Of a stretch of DNA of 64,000 bases, positions 46,805-54,637 are shown piece by piece. Within the stretch, counting starts at the first letter, position 1. Each line of letters starts with the position of its first letter. The notes under the pieces were generated by a model. It saw only the letters and a list, made by a program, of their open reading frames with translations. It was not told the DNA's origin and searched no databases. The position numbers and the translations under genes were made by a program. The stretch is from the NCBI GenBank assembly GCA_036013505.1, contig CP107851.1, positions 5,482,001-5,546,000 on the forward strand. The letters are read 5' to 3'. This DNA is from Streptomyces sp. NBC_00510. GTDB lineage: Bacteria; Actinomycetota; Actinomycetes; Streptomycetales; Streptomycetaceae.

Positions 46805-48184
46805 TCACACGGTGCGCGGACGTGTCGCCCGTCCCCGGGCACCCGTCATCAGGCCGCGGACCGAGAAGATGACGCCGAGCGCCACCAGGGCCGCCCCCAC
46901 CGCCATCCCGAGCGTGCCGTTGAGCGGCAGGACGATGCCGATGGCGCCGCCGATCACCCACGCCAGCTGGAGGGCGGTCTCCGAGCGGGCGAACGCCGAG
47001 GTGCGCACCTCCTCCGGCACGTCGCGCTGGATCAGGGCGTCCAGCGAGAGCTTGCCCAGCGCCTGCGCGATGCCCGCCGCGGCCGCGACGACGGCGATGG
47101 TCAGCACGCCGTACCAGGCCGCCGCCACGCACGTCGCCGCCAGGGCGGCGGCCAGCGCGCTGATGATGATCCGCTCCGGTCCGCGGTCGCGCAGCCAGGA
47201 GCCCAGCGCGGTGCCGAAGGCGTTGCCGGTGCCCGCCGCCACGGCGACCAGGCCCAGCGACACCGGCCCCGACAGGCCGCCCAGCGGATGCTCGCGCAGC
47301 AGGAACGCGAGGAAGAGGGTCAGGAATCCGGACAGCGCCCGCAGCGCGGCGTTGGCCTGCAGGGCGTGCAGCACCGGACCGCCGACGCTCCGCAGCCCCG
47401 GCCGCTTCTCCCGCCACTGCCGGCCCAGGCGGCGGTGCTCGACCTCCTCACCCGAGGTCAGCTCGGCGCGCGCCTCCCCCTTGGCGGAGTCCACCTTGTG
47501 CGGGAGGGAGAAGGAGAGCAGCGTCCCGCAGACGAAGACGACGAACGCCCCGTACAGCGGCACGCCCGGCCCGATCAGGTGGAGCAGCCCGCCGATCGGC
47601 GCCGCCACGGCGGTGGCCAGCAGGCCCGTCAGGCTCACCCGGGAGTTCGCCTTCACCAGCGTCGTACGGGCCGGCAGCAGCCGTGGCATCACCGCGCTGC
47701 GCACCACGCCGTACGCCTTCGACGCCACGAGCACGCCCAAGGCGGCCGGATACAGCTCCAGTCCGGCGGTCGCCACCACCCCGGCCATCGTCCAGGCCAG
47801 GATCGCCCGGGCCAGCATCGACATCGCCATCGCGGCGCGCCGGCCGTGCGGGATGCGGTCCAGCAGCGGCCCGATCACCGGGGCCAGCAGCGCGAACGGG
47901 GCCATCGTGACCAGCAGGTAGAGCGCCACGCGGCCGCGCGCCTCACCGGTCGGCACGGAGAAGAAGATCGTGCTGGCGAGCGCGACGGTGATCAGCATGT
48001 CGCCGGCCGAGTTCACCGCGTGCAGCTCGATCAGCTTCGCCAGACCCGACTCGCCCGCCCCGCCCGAGTGCGTGTGACGCCGGACGCGCCGCACCACGGC
48101 GGACGACGTACGCTGCGTGGCGCGCGCGACGGCGTTCCCCGCCCTGCGAACCGGTCCCGGGCCGGACGTCACTGTGCGTGCCAC
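46805..48184 (-). CDS. MFS transporter
   Basis: The 459-residue membrane protein has about 12 hydrophobic segments and an MFS-like A-motif GPLLDRIPHGRRAAM between helices 2 and 3. A polar basic N-terminus of about 45 residues and an Arg-rich C-terminus are cytosolic. The substrate is unknown. The start is GTG 48184. It is divergent from the DUF3027 gene. Confidence 0.85.
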   Translation of the reverse strand: MARTVTSGPGPVRRAGNAVARATQRTSSAVVRRVRRHTHSGGAGESGLAKLIELHAVNSAGDMLITVALASTIFFSVPTGEARGRVALYLLVTMAPFALLAPVIGPLLDRIPHGRRAAMAMSMLARAILAWTMAGVVATAGLELYPAALGVLVASKAYGVVRSAVMPRLLPARTTLVKANSRVSLTGLLATAVAAPIGGLLHLIGPGVPLYGAFVVFVCGTLLSFSLPHKVDSAKGEARAELTSGEEVEHRRLGRQWREKRPGLRSVGGPVLHALQANAALRALSGFLTLFLAFLLREHPLGGLSGPVSLGLVAVAAGTGNAFGTALGSWLRDRGPERIIISALAAALAATCVAAAWYGVLTIAVVAAAAGIAQALGKLSLDALIQRDVPEEVRTSAFARSETALQLAWVIGGAIGIVLPLNGTLGMAVGAALVALGVIFSVRGLMTGARGRATRPRTV

Positions 48185-48386
48185 GCTCGCCAGTCTGCCC
48201 TACCGGGCGGCTTTCCGAACGGGGCGCGCACCGATAGCGTGCGATCGCGCAGAATGGAGTCATCAGGTGCGCCCGTGGACGTACGGGCAGGCAGCGTTTG
48301 AAGCGGTCCTCCGGTCCGCTCCGCCACCGCCCCGCCCGACCCTCGGCGGCGCACGCGTAAGACGGCGTAGGAGAGAATCGATTCTT

Positions 48387-49301
48387 GTGAGTGCTGCGAT
48401 GCGAAGCCGTACCCCTGACCGCCTGTGCGCCGAGGCGGTCGACCTCGCCCTCGAAGCCGCCGTCGAGGCCTTCGGCGAGAAAGCGGTCGGCGAGCACCTC
48501 GGGGCGGTCGCCGAGGGCGACCGCGTCGTGACGCACCTGTTCGACTGCCGCGAGGCCTCGTACCGCGGCTGGCGCTGGGCGGTCACGCTCACCCGCGCCT
48601 CCCGCGCCAAGGCCATCACCTTGGACGAGACGGTCCTCGTGCCCGGGCCCGAGGCCGTCCTCGCGCCCGAATGGGTGCCGTGGAGCGAGCGCCTGCGCCC
48701 CGGCGACCTCGGCCCCGGCGACCTGCTGCCCACCGAGGCGGAGGACCTGCGCCTGGAGACCGGCTTCTCCGGGGAGGACGTCCCGCCGCCGAACTCGCCG
48801 GTCTCCGAGGAGATGGCCGAGCTCGTCGAGGCCGAGGACGCGGACGTCTCCGGCGGCCCCCCGGCGACCCTGCCGATGGCGCCCACGGTCGGCACGATCG
48901 CCGCGGTCGCGGAGGAGATCGGCATGGCCCGGCCGCGCGTGCTGTCCCGCTACGGGCTGCACGTCGCCGCGGACCGCTGGGAGGACGAGTACGGCCCCAA
49001 GGCCCCGATGGCCCAGGCCGCCCCCGCCCAGTGCGTCTCCTGCGGCTTCCTCGTCCCGATCGCGGGCTCCCTGCGGCAGGCCTTCGGCGTCTGCGCGAAC
49101 GAGTTCTCCCCAGCCGACGGGCGCGTCGTCTCCCTCGCCTACGGGTGCGGCGCGCACTCCGAGGCCGCGGTCATGCCGAAGACGCCCCGGCCCGCGCCGC
49201 CCGTCCTCGACGAGACCGCGATCGAGCCGCTCCCCCTCCACCCCGACCGCCAGGGCTCCGTCGAGGACACCACCCCGGCCGAGGAACTTGGCCACAGCTG
49301 A
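48387..49301 (+). CDS. DUF3027 family protein
   Basis: The 304-residue protein matches DUF3027, found in most actinobacteria near cold-shock and MFS genes. It has a conserved helical first half (AVDLALEAAVEAFGEKAVGEHLGAVAEGDRVVTHLFDC), an acidic Pro-rich middle, and a C-terminal CVSCGFLVP, VCANEF and YGCGAH set of cysteines that may bind zinc. No function is known. The GTG at 48387 is preceded by GGAGAG; ATG 48399 is an alternative. Confidence 0.85.
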   Translation: MSAAMRSRTPDRLCAEAVDLALEAAVEAFGEKAVGEHLGAVAEGDRVVTHLFDCREASYRGWRWAVTLTRASRAKAITLDETVLVPGPEAVLAPEWVPWSERLRPGDLGPGDLLPTEAEDLRLETGFSGEDVPPPNSPVSEEMAELVEAEDADVSGGPPATLPMAPTVGTIAAVAEEIGMARPRVLSRYGLHVAADRWEDEYGPKAPMAQAAPAQCVSCGFLVPIAGSLRQAFGVCANEFSPADGRVVSLAYGCGAHSEAAVMPKTPRPAPPVLDETAIEPLPLHPDRQGSVEDTTPAEELGHS

Positions 49302-50472
49302 CGGCTCCGCCGCGGCCCACGCCCGGCCCGGCGCGCCTCGGGGCCGGTGAGGCGCCGGTGAGGCGCCGGTAAGGCCGCCATCCCGGCCGGGTAACCCGGC
49401 CCCGGTCGACGGCTCCGCCGGCGGCCCGCCGCCGGGACCAGGTTGCGCTGGGCGTGCCTCGGGCGTCCACGTGGGCTCCGCCCACGCCCGGCCCGGCCCG
49501 GGACCCCGGTGGGGGGTCTCTCCACCGGGGCCGCTGTGCGCCGGTCGTCCCGGCTGGGTAACCCGGCCACGGCCGGCGCCGACGCCCGCGCCCGGGTCGC
49601 GCGGGCTGCCGCCCAGGTCGAGGGGTGGGTCATCGGTGACGGCTGCTGTTCGCGGTCAGGTGGGGTGCCCCCAGGCCCGCCCCGGGTGGGGGCCCGGGGC
49701 TGAGTCGCTTGCCCCCACCGGGGCCGCTCTGCGCCGGTCGTCTCGGTTGGGTAACCCGGCCACGCTGCCGGCTCCGCCGGCGCCGACGCCCGCGCCCGGG
49801 TCGCGCGGGCTGCCGCCCCCCAGGCACTCCGGTTGAGGAACCGGGCCCCAGTTGACGGCTGCCGTCCGCGGACGGTGCGCCTCAGGGCCAGGTGGGGTGC
49901 CCCTGCGCCCGGCCTGGCTCGGGTCGGGTTTCTCTCCACCGCGGCCGCTGTGCGCGGGCGAGGGTGCCATCCCGGTCGGGCCAACCCAGGCCCGGCCCGG
50001 CCCCGGACGACGAGCAGTCCCCCACGCCCTGTCCCAGCCTGGGCCTGGGCGCAGCCCACATGGCCCCTAGGCACGCCCGGCGAACCCGGCGCCGTGCGTC
50101 GGCCGCCGGCGGAGCCGGCGATCGTGGCCGAGTTCCCCGGCCGCGAACGGCAGCCGTCACCGGTGACCCACCGCCCTTCGACCGGAGTGCCCGGACGGCA
50201 GCCCGCGCAACCCCGCCCCGGTCGTCGGCCGCCGGCGGAGCCGGCAACGTGGCCGAACCCCCACCGCGGGGGCGCCGGATCGCGCGGGGCACCTTGGGCC
50301 GCCGGGTATTCGAGGCTCGCGAGCGGTGTGCGCGCCTTCCACGCCCCGGCCCGACCCGCGCGGGGCGGCGTCCCCGGGTGCGGGCGCGTGCGGGACGACC
50401 GGGCGACAGCCCACGCGGTAGCGTCACTCGCACAGGGCAGGGCATGCGACACCGCGTGAGGGAGAAGACGAC
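49302..50472. repeat. 1.2 kb GC-rich interval with degenerate repeats and no convincing gene
   Basis: Several frames stay open on both strands, but their translations are Arg/Pro/Gly-rich and inconsistent with each other. The DNA is built of degenerate repeats. A unit beginning CCACCGGGGCCGCTSTGCGC recurs at 49522 and 49715 (period 193) and, more diverged, at about 49,935. A second motif, GTCGGCCGCCGGCGGAGCCG, occurs at about 50,099 and 50,222. The promoter of the next gene is presumably near 50,400-50,460. Confidence 0.75.
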
Positions 50473-53400
50473 GTGAGCGGGACCGCGATGGACCGGGGCG
50501 CAGATCCGTTCGGGACCGCACGGCTGCGGCGGGCCGTGCTGGACGCGTGGGCCGCGTCGCCCGCCCGGTTCCGGGAGGACGCCAACGCGGAGGAGGACCT
50601 CGCGCTCGGCGGCTACCGCGACCGTCTCGTCGTCGAGCTGGCCCAGAACGCCGCCGACGCGGCGACCCGCGCCGGGGTGACCGGCCGCCTGCGGCTGACC
50701 CTGCGCGAGGGGGTGCTCGCCGCCGCGAACACCGGGGCCCACCTGGACGCCGCGGGCGTGGAGTCCCTGTCGACGCTGCGCGCCAGCTCCAAGCGCGAGG
50801 AGGGCGACCTGGCCGTCGGCCGCTTCGGCGTCGGATTCTCCGCGGTGCTCGCGGTCAGCGACGAGCCCGCGATCCTCAGCCGCAGCGGCGGCGTCCGCTG
50901 GTCGCTGGCCGAGGCCCGCGACCTCGCGCGGGAGACCGGTGGGCACTCCCCGGGGCTCACCGACGAACTGCGCCGCCGGGACGGCCACGTACCGCTGCTG
51001 CGGCTGCCGCTGCCCGCCGAGGGCACCGCCCCGGACGGCTACGACACGTGCGTCGTGCTGCCGCTGCGCGACGGCGCCGCCGCGGACCTCGCGGCGAGCC
51101 TGCTCGCCGCGATCGACGACGCGCTGCTGCTGTCCCTGCCCGGCCTGACCGAGGTGGTCGTGGAGACGCCGGAGGGCGTACGGACCCTGGCCCGGCGTCA
51201 GGAGGACGGCCTGACCGTCGTCGTGGACAGCGCCGGCGGCACCACCCGCTGGCGCACCGTGAGCGACGCGGGCCCGCTGGAGGCGGCGCTGCTGACCGAC
51301 CGCCCGGTCGAGGAGCGGCTGCGCCCGGTGTGGTCGGTGACCTGGGCCGTCCCGGTGGGCCAGGACGGCACGCCCGAGCGGCCGCGGACGGCGCCCTTCG
51401 TGCACGCCCCGACGCCGACGGACGAGCCGCTGGGGCTGCCCGCGCTGCTCATCGCCTCGCTGCCGCTGGACCCGAGCCGGCGCCACGCCGCGCCCGGCGC
51501 CCTCACCGACTTCCTGGTCGCGCGGGCGGCCGAGCTCTACGTACGGCTGCTGGCGGACTGGCGGCCGGTGACCGCGGGCATCGTGGACCTGGTGCCCGGC
51601 CCGCTCGGCAAGGGCGAGCTGGACGCCCAACTGCGCCGCCACGTGCAGGAGCGGCTGCCGCGCACCGCCTTCCTGCCGCGCGCCGCCGACGTCACGGGCA
51701 CGGACGGGGAGGACGAACTGCCGCCCGCGCTGCGCCCGGTGGAGGCCGAGGTCGTCGAGGGCACCGGCGCGGAGACCGTCCGCGTGCTGGCGGAGGTCTT
51801 CCCGACGCTGCTGCCCCCCGGGCTGGAGCGCCGCCCCGAACTGCGCGTCCTCGGGGTGGCCCGGCTGCCGCTGGGCGACGCGATCGACCGGCTCGCCGGG
51901 GTGGAGCGCCCCGCGGACTGGTGGCACCGCCTGTACGACTCGCTGGCCGGCACCGACCCGGACCGGCTGAGCGGGCTGCCCGTGCCGCTGGCCGACCGGC
52001 GTACGGTCGTCGGACCGCGCCAGGTGCTGCTCCCGCTCCCCGAGATGGACAGCGTCTACGCCGAGGAGTCCGCCCCGGTCAGCACCGGGCTGCCCGCCGC
52101 CTCCGAGCTGGCCCGGCTGGGCCTGAAGGTCGCCGACCCGGCGGCCGCGCACCCGCTGCTGGAGAAGCTCGGGGCCACCCCGGCGACCCCGCGCGCCGTC
52201 CTCACCACCCCTCAGGTGCGCGCGGCGGTGGCCGCGTCCCTGGACGCCGACGAGGCCTGGGACGAGGACGCGCCCGCGCTGGACGCGGAGGAACTGGCCG
52301 AGGTCGTGCTGGGCCTGGTCCGGGCCGCGAACCTCGCCCCCGGCGACGAGCCGTGGCTGGCCGCCCTCGCCCTCACCGACGACGAGGGCGAGCTCGCCCC
52401 CGCCGGTGAACTGGTGCTGCCGGGCAGCGCCTTCGAGCAGGTCATCCGGGAGGGGGAGCTCGGGTCCGTCGACGAGGACCTGGCCGCCCGCTGGGGCGAG
52501 CAGCCGCTGACCGCGGTCGGCGTGCTCGCCACCTTCGCCCTGGTCCGGGCCACCGACGTGGTGCTCGACCCGGACGAGCTGGAGCCGCGCGAGAGCGACT
52601 GGGCCGAGCCGGACGACGCCGGGCTGCTCGACGCGGTCGACGTGTGGTGCGAGGACGTCCTCGACCAGCTGCCGGACACCGACGTGCCGCCGGTCGCCAC
52701 CGAGATCGTCGCCGTGCGCGACCTCGACCTCGTCGCCGACGACGCCTGGCCGCAGGCGCTGGCCATGCTCTCCGTGCCGCCGCTGCGCGACGCGGTCACC
52801 CAGCCGGTGCGGGTCCTGCTGCCGGACGGCACCACGGAGTCCGTGCGGCCCTACACCGCCTGGTGGCTGCGCGACCACCCGGTCCTCGACGGCCGCCGCC
52901 CGGTCGGCCTGCGCGCGGCCGGTGGCGACCCGCTGCTCGATGGGCTGTACGAGGACGCCGAGGCCGGGGCCGTGGACGACCAGGTGCTGCGCGCCCTGGG
53001 CGTGCGCACGTCCGTCACGGCCCTGCTGGACGAGCCGGGCGGCGCCGCCGAGCTGCTCGCCCGGCTCGCCGACCCGGACTCCACGGTCACCCCGGCCCAG
53101 CTGCACCGGCTCTACTCCGAACTGGGCACCCTCGAACCCGAGCAGGTCACCCTCCCCGACGAGCTGCGGGCCGTCGTCGACGGCCACGAGCCGCGCGTGG
53201 TCGACGCCGGGGACGCCCTCGTCGCGGACGCGCCCGACCTGCTCCCGCTCACCGCAGGACTGCCCCTGCTCCCGGTGCCGCCGGTCCACGCGGCGGCGCT
53301 GGCCGAGCTGTTCCAGGTGCGCCGGCTCAGCGAGGCCCTCGACGCCCCGGTCGTCTCCGAGGGCGAGCCGCACGACGTCGCGGACGCGGTCCGCGAGCTG

Positions 53401-53643
53401 CTTCCGGGCGCCCCCCTGTCGTACGTCGAGCACGAGGAACTGCTGGTCAGGGCGGCCGACGGCAGCACCGTCGAGCTGGACTGGCGGTGGGTCGACGGCA
53501 CGCTGCACGCCGCCACGCTGGAGGGCGTCGCCGCCGGCCTGTCGTGGGCGGCCGGCGCCTGGCAGCGCCGCTTCGAGGTGGCCGCGCTGCTGGAGGACCC
53601 GACCCGCACGGAGGAGCTGGCCCGAGACCGCTGGTTCGACTGA
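50473..53643 (+). CDS. Giant protein with N-terminal sacsin/Hsp90-like ATPase domain
   Basis: The 1056-residue protein has a GHKL ATPase domain: N-box VELAQNAADAATRAG (about 54-68), ANTGAHLD (G1-like) and the glycine-rich GRFGVGFSAVLAV (about 117-129). This is the sacsin N-terminal/histidine-kinase-like ATPase family of actinobacteria. The remaining 850 residues are acidic, repeat-free and of unknown fold. It may be a chaperone-like or signalling protein. The GTG at 50473 follows GGGAGAAGACGAC. Confidence 0.88.
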   Translation: MSGTAMDRGADPFGTARLRRAVLDAWAASPARFREDANAEEDLALGGYRDRLVVELAQNAADAATRAGVTGRLRLTLREGVLAAANTGAHLDAAGVESLSTLRASSKREEGDLAVGRFGVGFSAVLAVSDEPAILSRSGGVRWSLAEARDLARETGGHSPGLTDELRRRDGHVPLLRLPLPAEGTAPDGYDTCVVLPLRDGAAADLAASLLAAIDDALLLSLPGLTEVVVETPEGVRTLARRQEDGLTVVVDSAGGTTRWRTVSDAGPLEAALLTDRPVEERLRPVWSVTWAVPVGQDGTPERPRTAPFVHAPTPTDEPLGLPALLIASLPLDPSRRHAAPGALTDFLVARAAELYVRLLADWRPVTAGIVDLVPGPLGKGELDAQLRRHVQERLPRTAFLPRAADVTGTDGEDELPPALRPVEAEVVEGTGAETVRVLAEVFPTLLPPGLERRPELRVLGVARLPLGDAIDRLAGVERPADWWHRLYDSLAGTDPDRLSGLPVPLADRRTVVGPRQVLLPLPEMDSVYAEESAPVSTGLPAASELARLGLKVADPAAAHPLLEKLGATPATPRAVLTTPQVRAAVAASLDADEAWDEDAPALDAEELAEVVLGLVRAANLAPGDEPWLAALALTDDEGELAPAGELVLPGSAFEQVIREGELGSVDEDLAARWGEQPLTAVGVLATFALVRATDVVLDPDELEPRESDWAEPDDAGLLDAVDVWCEDVLDQLPDTDVPPVATEIVAVRDLDLVADDAWPQALAMLSVPPLRDAVTQPVRVLLPDGTTESVRPYTAWWLRDHPVLDGRRPVGLRAAGGDPLLDGLYEDAEAGAVDDQVLRALGVRTSVTALLDEPGGAAELLARLADPDSTVTPAQLHRLYSELGTLEPEQVTLPDELRAVVDGHEPRVVDAGDALVADAPDLLPLTAGLPLLPVPPVHAAALAELFQVRRLSEALDAPVVSEGEPHDVADAVRELLPGAPLSYVEHEELLVRAADGSTVELDWRWVDGTLHAATLEGVAAGLSWAAGAWQRRFEVAALLEDPTRTEELARDRWFD

Positions 53644-53800
53644 GCGGCGACGGACCGAGTGTCCGTCGTCACACAGGGAGATATGTCGAAAGCGTTTCCG
53701 CTGGATGACTGTTCGCGCGTACGCTCTTCCTCTCACCATTCGAGACGCCACGTCCGGGGGAGTTCGACGGGCGTCCTCTTCATCTGGGGGATTCTCAAGC

Positions 53801-54637
53801 ATGCGTATTCGCGCCACCGTGGCCGCTGTTTCCGGCGCCCTGGCCCTCGCTTCGCTGGCAGTCCCGGCCGCGCAGGCCTCCGACAAGCCGGCGGTCACCG
53901 CCCTGTCGACCTTCGCCGCCAAGGCGGGAGCGGCCGACTCCGTGGGTGACACCAAGATCACCAAGGTCGTCGTGAACGGCGGCAAGGACATCGTCCTCGG
54001 GACGGGCGGCAAGAAGACGGTCTCCGTCGCGGTGACCGCCACCGACCCGGCGGGCATCGACGGCGGCGCCGCGTTCCTCTGGCACGGCGCGTCGTTCACC
54101 GACGACGGCATCGACGGCGGCCTTTTCCCGGCCACGGACTACGCCGCCTGCACCGTGGTCAACGCCACCACCTCCACCTGCAAGGTCAGCATCACCATCG
54201 ACCCCCAGGCGGACCTGTACAAGAACGCGCTCGCCGGTTCCTGGAAGGTGTACGCCTTGGTCGGGGGCAAGGACGGCGACTACGTCGAGAAGGAGATCGC
54301 CGGCACCGCGAAGATCAAGCGCAACACCGTGGTGACGGTCAACGCCACGCCGGAGCCGGTGAAGAAGGGCAAGACCATCACCGTCACCGGCAAGCTCACC
54401 CGGGCCAACTGGGAGACCCACAAGTACGCCGGCTACACGGGCCAGTCCGTGCAGCTGCAGTTCCGCAAGAAGGGCACCACCGCGTACAAGACGGTCAAGA
54501 CCGTCAAGTCCAGCAGCACCGGTGCCCTGAAGACCACCGTCAAGGCGTCCGTGGACGGCTACTGGCGCTACAACTTCGTCACCACTTCGCTCAGCGGCGC
54601 GTCCGTCTCCACGGCCGACTTCGTCGACGTGAAGTAA
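53801..54637 (+). CDS. Secreted protein with Ig-like repeats
   Basis: The 278-residue product has a Sec signal peptide (MRIRATVAAVSGALALASLAVPAAQA, about 26 residues) and a mature part rich in Lys, Thr and Val, predicted to be beta-sandwich domains. The C-terminal TVTVNATPEPVKKGKTITVTGKLTRANW resembles bacterial Ig-like modules. Two cysteines (ACTVV, TCKVS) could form a disulfide. Function is unknown; a wall or surface structural role is possible. Confidence 0.78.
   Translation: MRIRATVAAVSGALALASLAVPAAQASDKPAVTALSTFAAKAGAADSVGDTKITKVVVNGGKDIVLGTGGKKTVSVAVTATDPAGIDGGAAFLWHGASFTDDGIDGGLFPATDYAACTVVNATTSTCKVSITIDPQADLYKNALAGSWKVYALVGGKDGDYVEKEIAGTAKIKRNTVVTVNATPEPVKKGKTITVTGKLTRANWETHKYAGYTGQSVQLQFRKKGTTAYKTVKTVKSSSTGALKTTVKASVDGYWRYNFVTTSLSGASVSTADFVDVK

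Follow-up and report, generated by a model that had tools for sequence, protein, structure and literature searches.

The window analysed here is the whole 64,000-nucleotide stretch of contig CP107851.1 (positions 5,482,001 to 5,546,000) of Streptomyces sp. NBC_00510, and all coordinates below are counted from its first letter. At 50473-53643, on the forward strand, it carries the gene of a long ATPase whose head is of the type found in sacsin, the human ataxia protein, and which forms a conserved gene pair with the gene of a DUF3027 protein lying upstream. The ATPase gene and the parts of its product are as follows:

50460..50464, + strand: GGGAG, a ribosome-binding-like site ahead of the GTG start, picked out by eye in the sequence
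50473..53643, + strand: sacsin-type GHKL ATPase, 1056 residues; one match in its own genome, present in 101/101 family genomes
50500..51042, + strand: GHKL (Bergerat) ATP-binding domain, residues ~10-190, limits approximate (NF047352 and fold match)
50635..50664, + strand: N-box E55-L-x-x-N59-x-x-D62-A-A64, with the predicted catalytic Glu and Mg-binding Asn; E55, N59 and D62 invariant
50728..50736, + strand: G1 box N86-T-G88, with Asn where Hsp90 has Asp79, a trait also of each of the three sacsin units
50785..50793, + strand: lid S105-x-K107, in 32/32 relatives, spaced as S178/K180 of sacsin
50818..50838, + strand: G2 box GRFGVGF, residues 116-122, with Arg117 as Arg189 of sacsin
51040..51672, + strand: S5-like transducer/middle domain, residues ~190-400, limits approximate (VIA-align rows 27-401 and secondary structure)
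51478..51483, + strand: Arg336-Arg337 in a strand-loop-long helix; Arg336 corresponds in position to Hsp90 Arg380 / sacsin Arg474
51670..53640, + strand: body of ~650 residues, alpha/beta, modelled alone, with no solved relative found
51793..51969, + strand: body repeat unit 1, residues 441-499 (HHalign to unit 2)
52930..53148, + strand: body repeat unit 2, residues 820-892 (HHalign to unit 1)

The open reading frame (ORF) starts with GTG and runs to its stop codon without interruption, encoding a product of 112 kDa with an isoelectric point (pI) of 4.43 (179 Asp plus Glu residues versus 93 Lys plus Arg). An earlier, sequence-only reading of this DNA had marked out the same frame and called its product acidic, and was right in both; its word 'giant' holds in a relative sense only, the ATPase having 1056 residues against the 4579 of sacsin (PMC3629688). 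An antisense ORF at 49882-54135 is even longer (1417 amino acids). Because the ATPase finds protein-level matches in all 101 genomes and all 17 genera of its family, we regard it as a real gene and not as an artefact of the guanine-plus-cytosine (GC) content; that it is such an artefact or a pseudogene is excluded by the open frame, by conservation over the full length and by catalytic residues that are invariant in 32 aligned relatives (36-83% identity to the window ATPase). The family is the Streptomycetaceae, as judged from named relatives: one from Actinacidiphila glaucinigra is 96% identical, and the 80 named loci belong mostly to Streptomyces and its relatives. The gene has a single match in its own 10.1-Mb genome and occurs in 34/35 genomes of the genus (33/33 of good quality). 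In the class sample it is found in 125/246 genomes at E<=1e-10 (116/221 of good quality), a tally that also counts some partial or weak matches (e.g. 8e-42, 4e-20). At E<=1e-20 the phylum sample of 198 genomes yields eleven with a match. Ten of them belong to the family or the class and match at full or near-full length; the eleventh comes from elsewhere in the phylum and matches over positions 19-257 of 1003 only, so that this sample holds no full-length match outside the class. A profile of the body alone retrieves the identical ten genomes. This architecture thus looks confined to the class Actinomycetes, within which it is core in the family, and, judged from presence and position rather than from a tree, the gene would have been inherited vertically.

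The head domain already has a database name and is hence not new. NCBIfam NF047352, the sacsin N-terminal ATP-binding-like domain, matches residues 50-134 well above its cut-off of 50 (74.4 bits, 7.2e-21) and is found in 32/32 aligned relatives; Pfam SACS reaches 23.7 bits, under the curated cut-off of 32.8, and Pfam HSP90 (PF00183) gives no match to the ATPase at E up to 1. The GHKL head proposed from sequence is borne out by NF047352, and the residues of the ATP site support its assignment to the sacsin/Hsp90 type. Pfam scans of the window ATPase and the 32 relatives found no UBL, DnaJ or HEPN domain, no nuclease, topoisomerase or helicase domain, and no recognised effector domain.

The ATP site of sacsin has been described as Glu116, Asn120, Asp123, Asn160, Ser178, Lys180, Gly188, Arg189, Gly191 and Gly193, with Asn160 standing for Hsp90 Asp79 and Arg189 for Hsp90 Gln119 (PMC9880540). 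In the ATPase, residues E55, N59, D62, N86, G88, S105, K107, G116, R117, G119 and G121 are invariant in 32/32 relatives; the set includes the sacsin-type residues E55, N59, D62, N86, K107, R117, G119 and G121, and the spacing inside each motif equals that of sacsin, including E55/N59/D62 versus E116/N120/D123. The equivalents of Asn160 and Arg189, the two positions at which sacsin differs from Hsp90, are likewise kept in 32/32, where an HSP90-family protein encoded in the same genome has Asp and Gln; Lys107 does not discriminate, this HSP90-family protein also having Lys. Downstream, R336 and R337 are present in 32/32 relatives, and R336 aligns with Arg in the HSP90-family protein and in 10/10 paralogues described below. 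In the predicted model R336 sits in the loop that joins strand 325-329 to helix 343-361, and a strand-loop-long-helix setting has also been described for sacsin Arg474 and Hsp90 Arg380; the equivalence to sacsin Arg474 comes from the alignment with the paralogues and the HSP90-family protein, not from superposition on sacsin. In the protein a Bergerat fold precedes an S5-like domain that carries a candidate gamma-phosphate arginine, and from the ATP-site residues and Arg336 an active ATPase is to be expected.

As in a vertebrate sacsin repeat (SIRPT/SRR), the ATPase has Asn for Asp79, the lid Lys, the G2-box Arg and a downstream candidate catalytic Arg, and as in a SIRPT a single ATPase is followed by a long body. 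SIRPT1-3 of sacsin span about 1000-1385 residues (PMC3629688). The two proteins differ in that the ATPase has one unit instead of three in tandem (one domain match in 1056 residues) and lacks the UBL, DnaJ and HEPN domains. With Hsp90/HtpG, and with the HSP90-family protein of its own genome (L204; 37% identity to the head over 86 columns), it shares the GHKL head, the middle-domain Arg and the transducer fold; unlike Hsp90, it has Asn86 (32/32) in place of the adenine-binding Asp, no Pfam HSP90 match, and a longer body with no PDB match. The genome carries two HSP90-family genes, at C1:3071777 (L204/L206) and C1:8071574 (L203/L207), both matching Pfam HSP90 over ~107-121 middle-part positions only.

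The fold of the head was compared on a predicted model of the full ATPase, which has a mean predicted local distance difference test score (pLDDT) of 78.9 and a predicted template modelling score (pTM) of 0.57 and is weakest in the head and the lid. Foldseek matches it to HtpG (Hsp90) at E 2e-6, and VIA-align matches residues ~27-401, among the 50 matches listed, to TopoVI-B, GyrB, MutL and Hsp90 folds with Z of 9.8-11.7. Structure prediction, which the sequence-only reading had proposed as a check, agrees with its GHKL assignment of the head. The best Z for TopoVI-B (11.7), GyrB (11.3) and Hsp90 (11.3) are level, the best of each kind lying within about one unit, and comparison of the predicted structure does not separate chaperone-type from DNA-acting clamps. 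The ATPase could in that case be a clamp acting on DNA or RNA, with the logic of MutL, GyrB or MORC, brought to nucleic acid by DUF3027, whose conserved, zinc-site-like Cys and His residues would suit such a role. We consider this unlikely. The transducer residue of gyrase and MutL is a lysine, and here it is Arg336, as in sacsin and Hsp90; the pI of 4.4-5.1 in 32/32 relatives argues against direct binding of nucleic acid by the ATPase; and the nuclease, topoisomerase and helicase domains of such enzymes are missing from the Pfam matches.

The sequence-only reading had put the body at some 850 residues; about 200 of those form the S5-like transducer, and about 650 are indeed left without a recognised domain. 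Residues 376-1056 modelled alone (29 alignment rows) fold confidently, with pLDDT 90.0 and pTM 0.76, and no PDB match was found: Foldseek of the body model against PDB gives nothing at E<=0.001 (best E 0.36), VIA-align against 719 chains gives a best Z of 2.1, and the body profile has no match among PDB sequences up to E 10. The body model, at 681 residues, is beyond the length where a single domain can be missed, and these results are no proof of a new fold. Two hand-cut segments, residues 441-499 and 820-892, align to each other in HHalign with a probability of 62.7% (E 7.2e-5), the other 20 of 21 segment pairs inside the ATPase staying at or below 2.3%. A body built as a regular solenoid is not established, this sole repeat pair dropping to 8.6-11.4% in a whole-body self-comparison.

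Upstream of the ATPase gene the window shows:

46805..48184, - strand: MFS transporter (PF07690), a frequent divergent neighbour, present with DUF3027 upstream in 72/99 family loci
48117..49301, + strand: DUF3027 protein, the upstream partner gene, start uncertain (PF11228, 1.7e-79)
49302..50472, no strand: repeat-rich gap between the DUF3027 and ATPase genes, 1171 bp, with imperfect direct and inverted repeats

The sequence-only reading had seen no partner gene other than DUF3027 upstream and no operon link for the ATPase, and had proposed an analysis of the gene neighbourhood; for the wider family of proteins the lack of a link does not hold. Of the family loci of at least 9 kb, 80/99 carry DUF3027 upstream in the same orientation, and 70/99 keep the entire order futalosine hydrolase-DUF2771-MFS / DUF3027-ATPase. 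Outside the family, adjacency was tabulated for 71 of the 103 genomes with an ATPase match, and DUF3027 lies directly upstream in 57/71, the adjacent pairs coming from at least 17 numbered families. Among 23 such loci that were fetched, the gene directly upstream is DUF3027, in the same orientation, in 21, while one has it inverted and one is without it; the gaps in the 21 pairs range from -115 to 204 bp, and 12 pairs lie within 10 bp or overlap. In an annotated record of Tsukamurella the two genes are 1 bp apart. DUF3027 and the ATPase are a conserved gene pair, and the signature family to which SCO4330 belongs is the same conserved upstream partner as in the window.

The gap filled by repeats, which had stood in the way of an operon link, is real in the window and a local trait: in relatives little DNA usually separates the two genes, and beyond the family they often abut. 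Within the family, gaps measured at 109 of 130 loci span 79-5760 bp, with 47 of at most 300 bp and 7 above 1500 bp; some genes are represented by two loci, from two records, and individual gap lengths may be inexact, since a script took the start codon closest to where the start was expected. In the window the repeats occupy 1.15 kb (49310-50460), GC-rich and made of imperfect direct and inverted copies. A dispersed element is excluded as their source, the genome holding short matches only and plasmids none; a scan of the gap for promoters and terminators found none, a scan that is uninformative at this GC content. The identified neighbours in the window are futalosine hydrolase, DUF2771 (a match under the Pfam cut-off), MFS, DUF3027, a P-type ATPase and a permease. 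Directly downstream, at 53936-54637, lies the gene of a small protein that matches DUF5707 weakly, under the cut-off, and is found in some relatives only.

The gene pair bears on a further reading of the head, that the ATPase serves broad clients as a general stress chaperone, in the way described for sacsin and Hsp90, and that DUF3027 is merely a conserved neighbour. The sacsin-type signature speaks for it, sacsin having been described as chaperone-like (PMC3629688, PMC9880540), as does the separation of the ATPase from DUF3027 in 9 tabulated genomes of one numbered family, f18. We think it improbable, since the pair is kept in at least 17 families outside its own, which points to a dedicated partner; moreover, no chaperone is found among the identified window neighbours, for which part of the nearby genes was scanned, and the J and UBL domains of sacsin are missing.

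Among the matches listed we found no publication on the ATPase or on its pairing with DUF3027, subscription journals being mostly outside the coverage, and the description of the protein as uncharacterised holds for the literature searched. SCO4331, which by gene order we take to be the S. coelicolor orthologue of the ATPase, has no mention in the literature found. SCO4330/DUF3027 appears among the actinobacterial signature genes tabulated in PMC4255298, from whose main text the tags SCO4331 and SCO4332 are absent, and transposons are reported to have hit SCO4330 more than five times among mutants whose actinorhodin was reduced or lost (PMC6585502). Rv0877, also a DUF3027 gene, carries a frameshift in one BCG isolate (PMC7781554), and therefore the gene can be lost there. 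At least 95% of 31 DUF3027 proteins share each of the residues C306, C309, C326, C344 and H347, numbered as in the window, a pattern that resembles a zinc site and suggests that DUF3027 may bind zinc.

The head of the ATPase is shared with a second set of proteins, from which another reading arises: the ATPase would defend the cell against phages in the manner of Tiamat (TmtA), its GHKL head sensing infection and its body acting on the cell or the phage. PADLOC TmtA profiles match 20/20 members of a relatives alignment, and the window ATPase is matched at 6.2e-39, residues 20-359 corresponding to 18-350 of 1538 profile positions. Some family genomes also encode paralogues (ten of them fetched, L185-L194) with open frames of 1548-1823 amino acids, which like the ATPase have the GHKL plus S5-like module, with Asn86 and Arg336 in 10/10. 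In four of the five scanned, a helicase-type domain follows this head close to the C terminus; the fifth is a full-length TmtA: L190 matches 12-1656 of the 1782 positions of PDLC03971. By HHalign the ATPase aligns with the paralogues over residues ~18-394 with a probability of 99.9%, whereas the body alone reaches 1.5-1.8% against their tails, which are not significantly alignable; a full-length alignment extends to residue 969. In addition, one head-only plasmid relative (H5) adjoins a DNA methyltransferase and a PD-(D/E)XK protein.

We nevertheless regard a role of this kind as very unlikely. Membership of Tiamat itself is excluded, the match being limited to residues 20-359 of the head where L190 matches over its full length. 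The distribution is not the patchy one looked for in such a system: the gene is core in the family (101/101), single in its own genome and largely syntenic (80/99 loci), with 125/246 genomes in the class; and no recognised effector domain was found in the Pfam scans. Mobile elements point the same way. Phages gave no ATPase match, and of 278 pattern matches in viral contigs none was confirmed as a relative. Seventeen plasmid records were matched. The two with the highest coverage are 2.7-Mb and 11.9-Mb replicons, and the third (H3, 413 kb, Tsukamurella) carries seemingly core genes; 13 cover at most 34% of the ATPase, at the head, and H9 amounts to 97 residues where a record of 23 kb ends. That the gene is phage or plasmid cargo is excluded by the lack of a phage match, by the size of the best plasmid replicons and by the core-like content of H3. 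The window ATPase thus belongs to a broad set with one ATPase-transducer module in common, and forms a branch of it in which no effector domain is recognised.

Several observations on this set stand apart from the gene pair. The helicase-tailed paralogues (L186 6722-11443, L191 6789-11435, L192 5704-10770 and L193 5949-10895; 1548-1688 amino acids) are matched in PADLOC by TmtA at the head and by PbeA, DpdF or restriction-enzyme profiles at the tail, and are possibly a separate defence family. The plasmid relative H5 (L184, Arthrobacter plasmid p2MP, 7977-16920) stands in a run with DNA methyltransferase, ATP-binding, PD-(D/E)XK and Z1-domain proteins that looks like a defence island. A core, largely syntenic gene scoring 6e-39 against TmtA by its head alone could be miscounted as Tiamat in surveys that apply no coverage filter.

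The reading that we favour, at somewhat less than an even chance, is that the ATPase is a sacsin-type clamp with a housekeeping role in actinomycetes, driven by ATP and working with the zinc-site-like DUF3027. Binding of ATP would close the lid, and the transducer with Arg336 would dock; the motion would pass to the ~650-residue body, which would hold or remodel a client, and hydrolysis would reset the clamp. The client or adaptor would most likely be DUF3027 itself, or what DUF3027 binds. Lid closure and arginine docking are proposed because of established GHKL biochemistry and the conserved residues; the motion of the body, the handling of a client and the part of DUF3027 we infer. In Streptomyces the pair might, more tentatively, affect physiology linked to specialised metabolism. 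A bolder version of the sacsin-type clamp, which we hold doubtful, would see the two proteins as one dedicated ATP-driven machine, specific to Actinomycetes and built on a body fold absent from PDB, a single-unit bacterial counterpart of the sacsin repeat that steers physiology, including antibiotic production, through a zinc-binding partner.

A number of results weigh against the clamp reading: (i) DUF3027, found in 243/246 genomes of the class sample, is far commoner than the ATPase (125/246) and can therefore do without it; DUF3027 is the constant and the ATPase the optional member of the pair. (ii) The pair is not adjacent in 14/71 genomes outside the family (5 inverted within ~5.5 kb, 2 far apart on one contig and 7 on different contigs, some of which contig breaks may explain). 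The 9 far-apart and different-contig cases all belong to f18, another genome of which (L177) keeps the pair together; in f18 genome L176, as a side observation, the ATPase is enlarged to 1227 amino acids and lies ~0.12 Mb from a contig end. (iii) In the family, 19/99 loci have no DUF3027 upstream in the stretch examined, some stretches ending early, and the two genes abut in 0/109 loci. (iv) The actinorhodin phenotype of SCO4330 is that of DUF3027, and the transposon insertions may be polar on the next gene. (v) The sacsin-like Asn and Arg are not exclusive, occurring in 10/10 and 8/10 of the TmtA-like paralogues; because these mostly have both positions, the ATP-site signature, read from residues, would mark a wider sacsin/Tiamat-type module and not sacsin alone. 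(vi) The structural model is poor in the GHKL domain, residues 98-130 being under pLDDT 50.

Sacsin is hard to study because of its 4579 residues and three repeated units, and a single-unit bacterial relative of 112 kDa with an intact ATP site offers an easier route to how a sacsin-type ATPase drives a long body. Confidently predicted and with no solved relative found, the body is one whose structure would probably be informative. The ATPase is also a candidate partner for DUF3027, a signature protein that is near-universal in the class sample and has been reported to be linked to actinorhodin production, and the DUF3027-ATPase pair would be a testable and unexplored bacterial machine.

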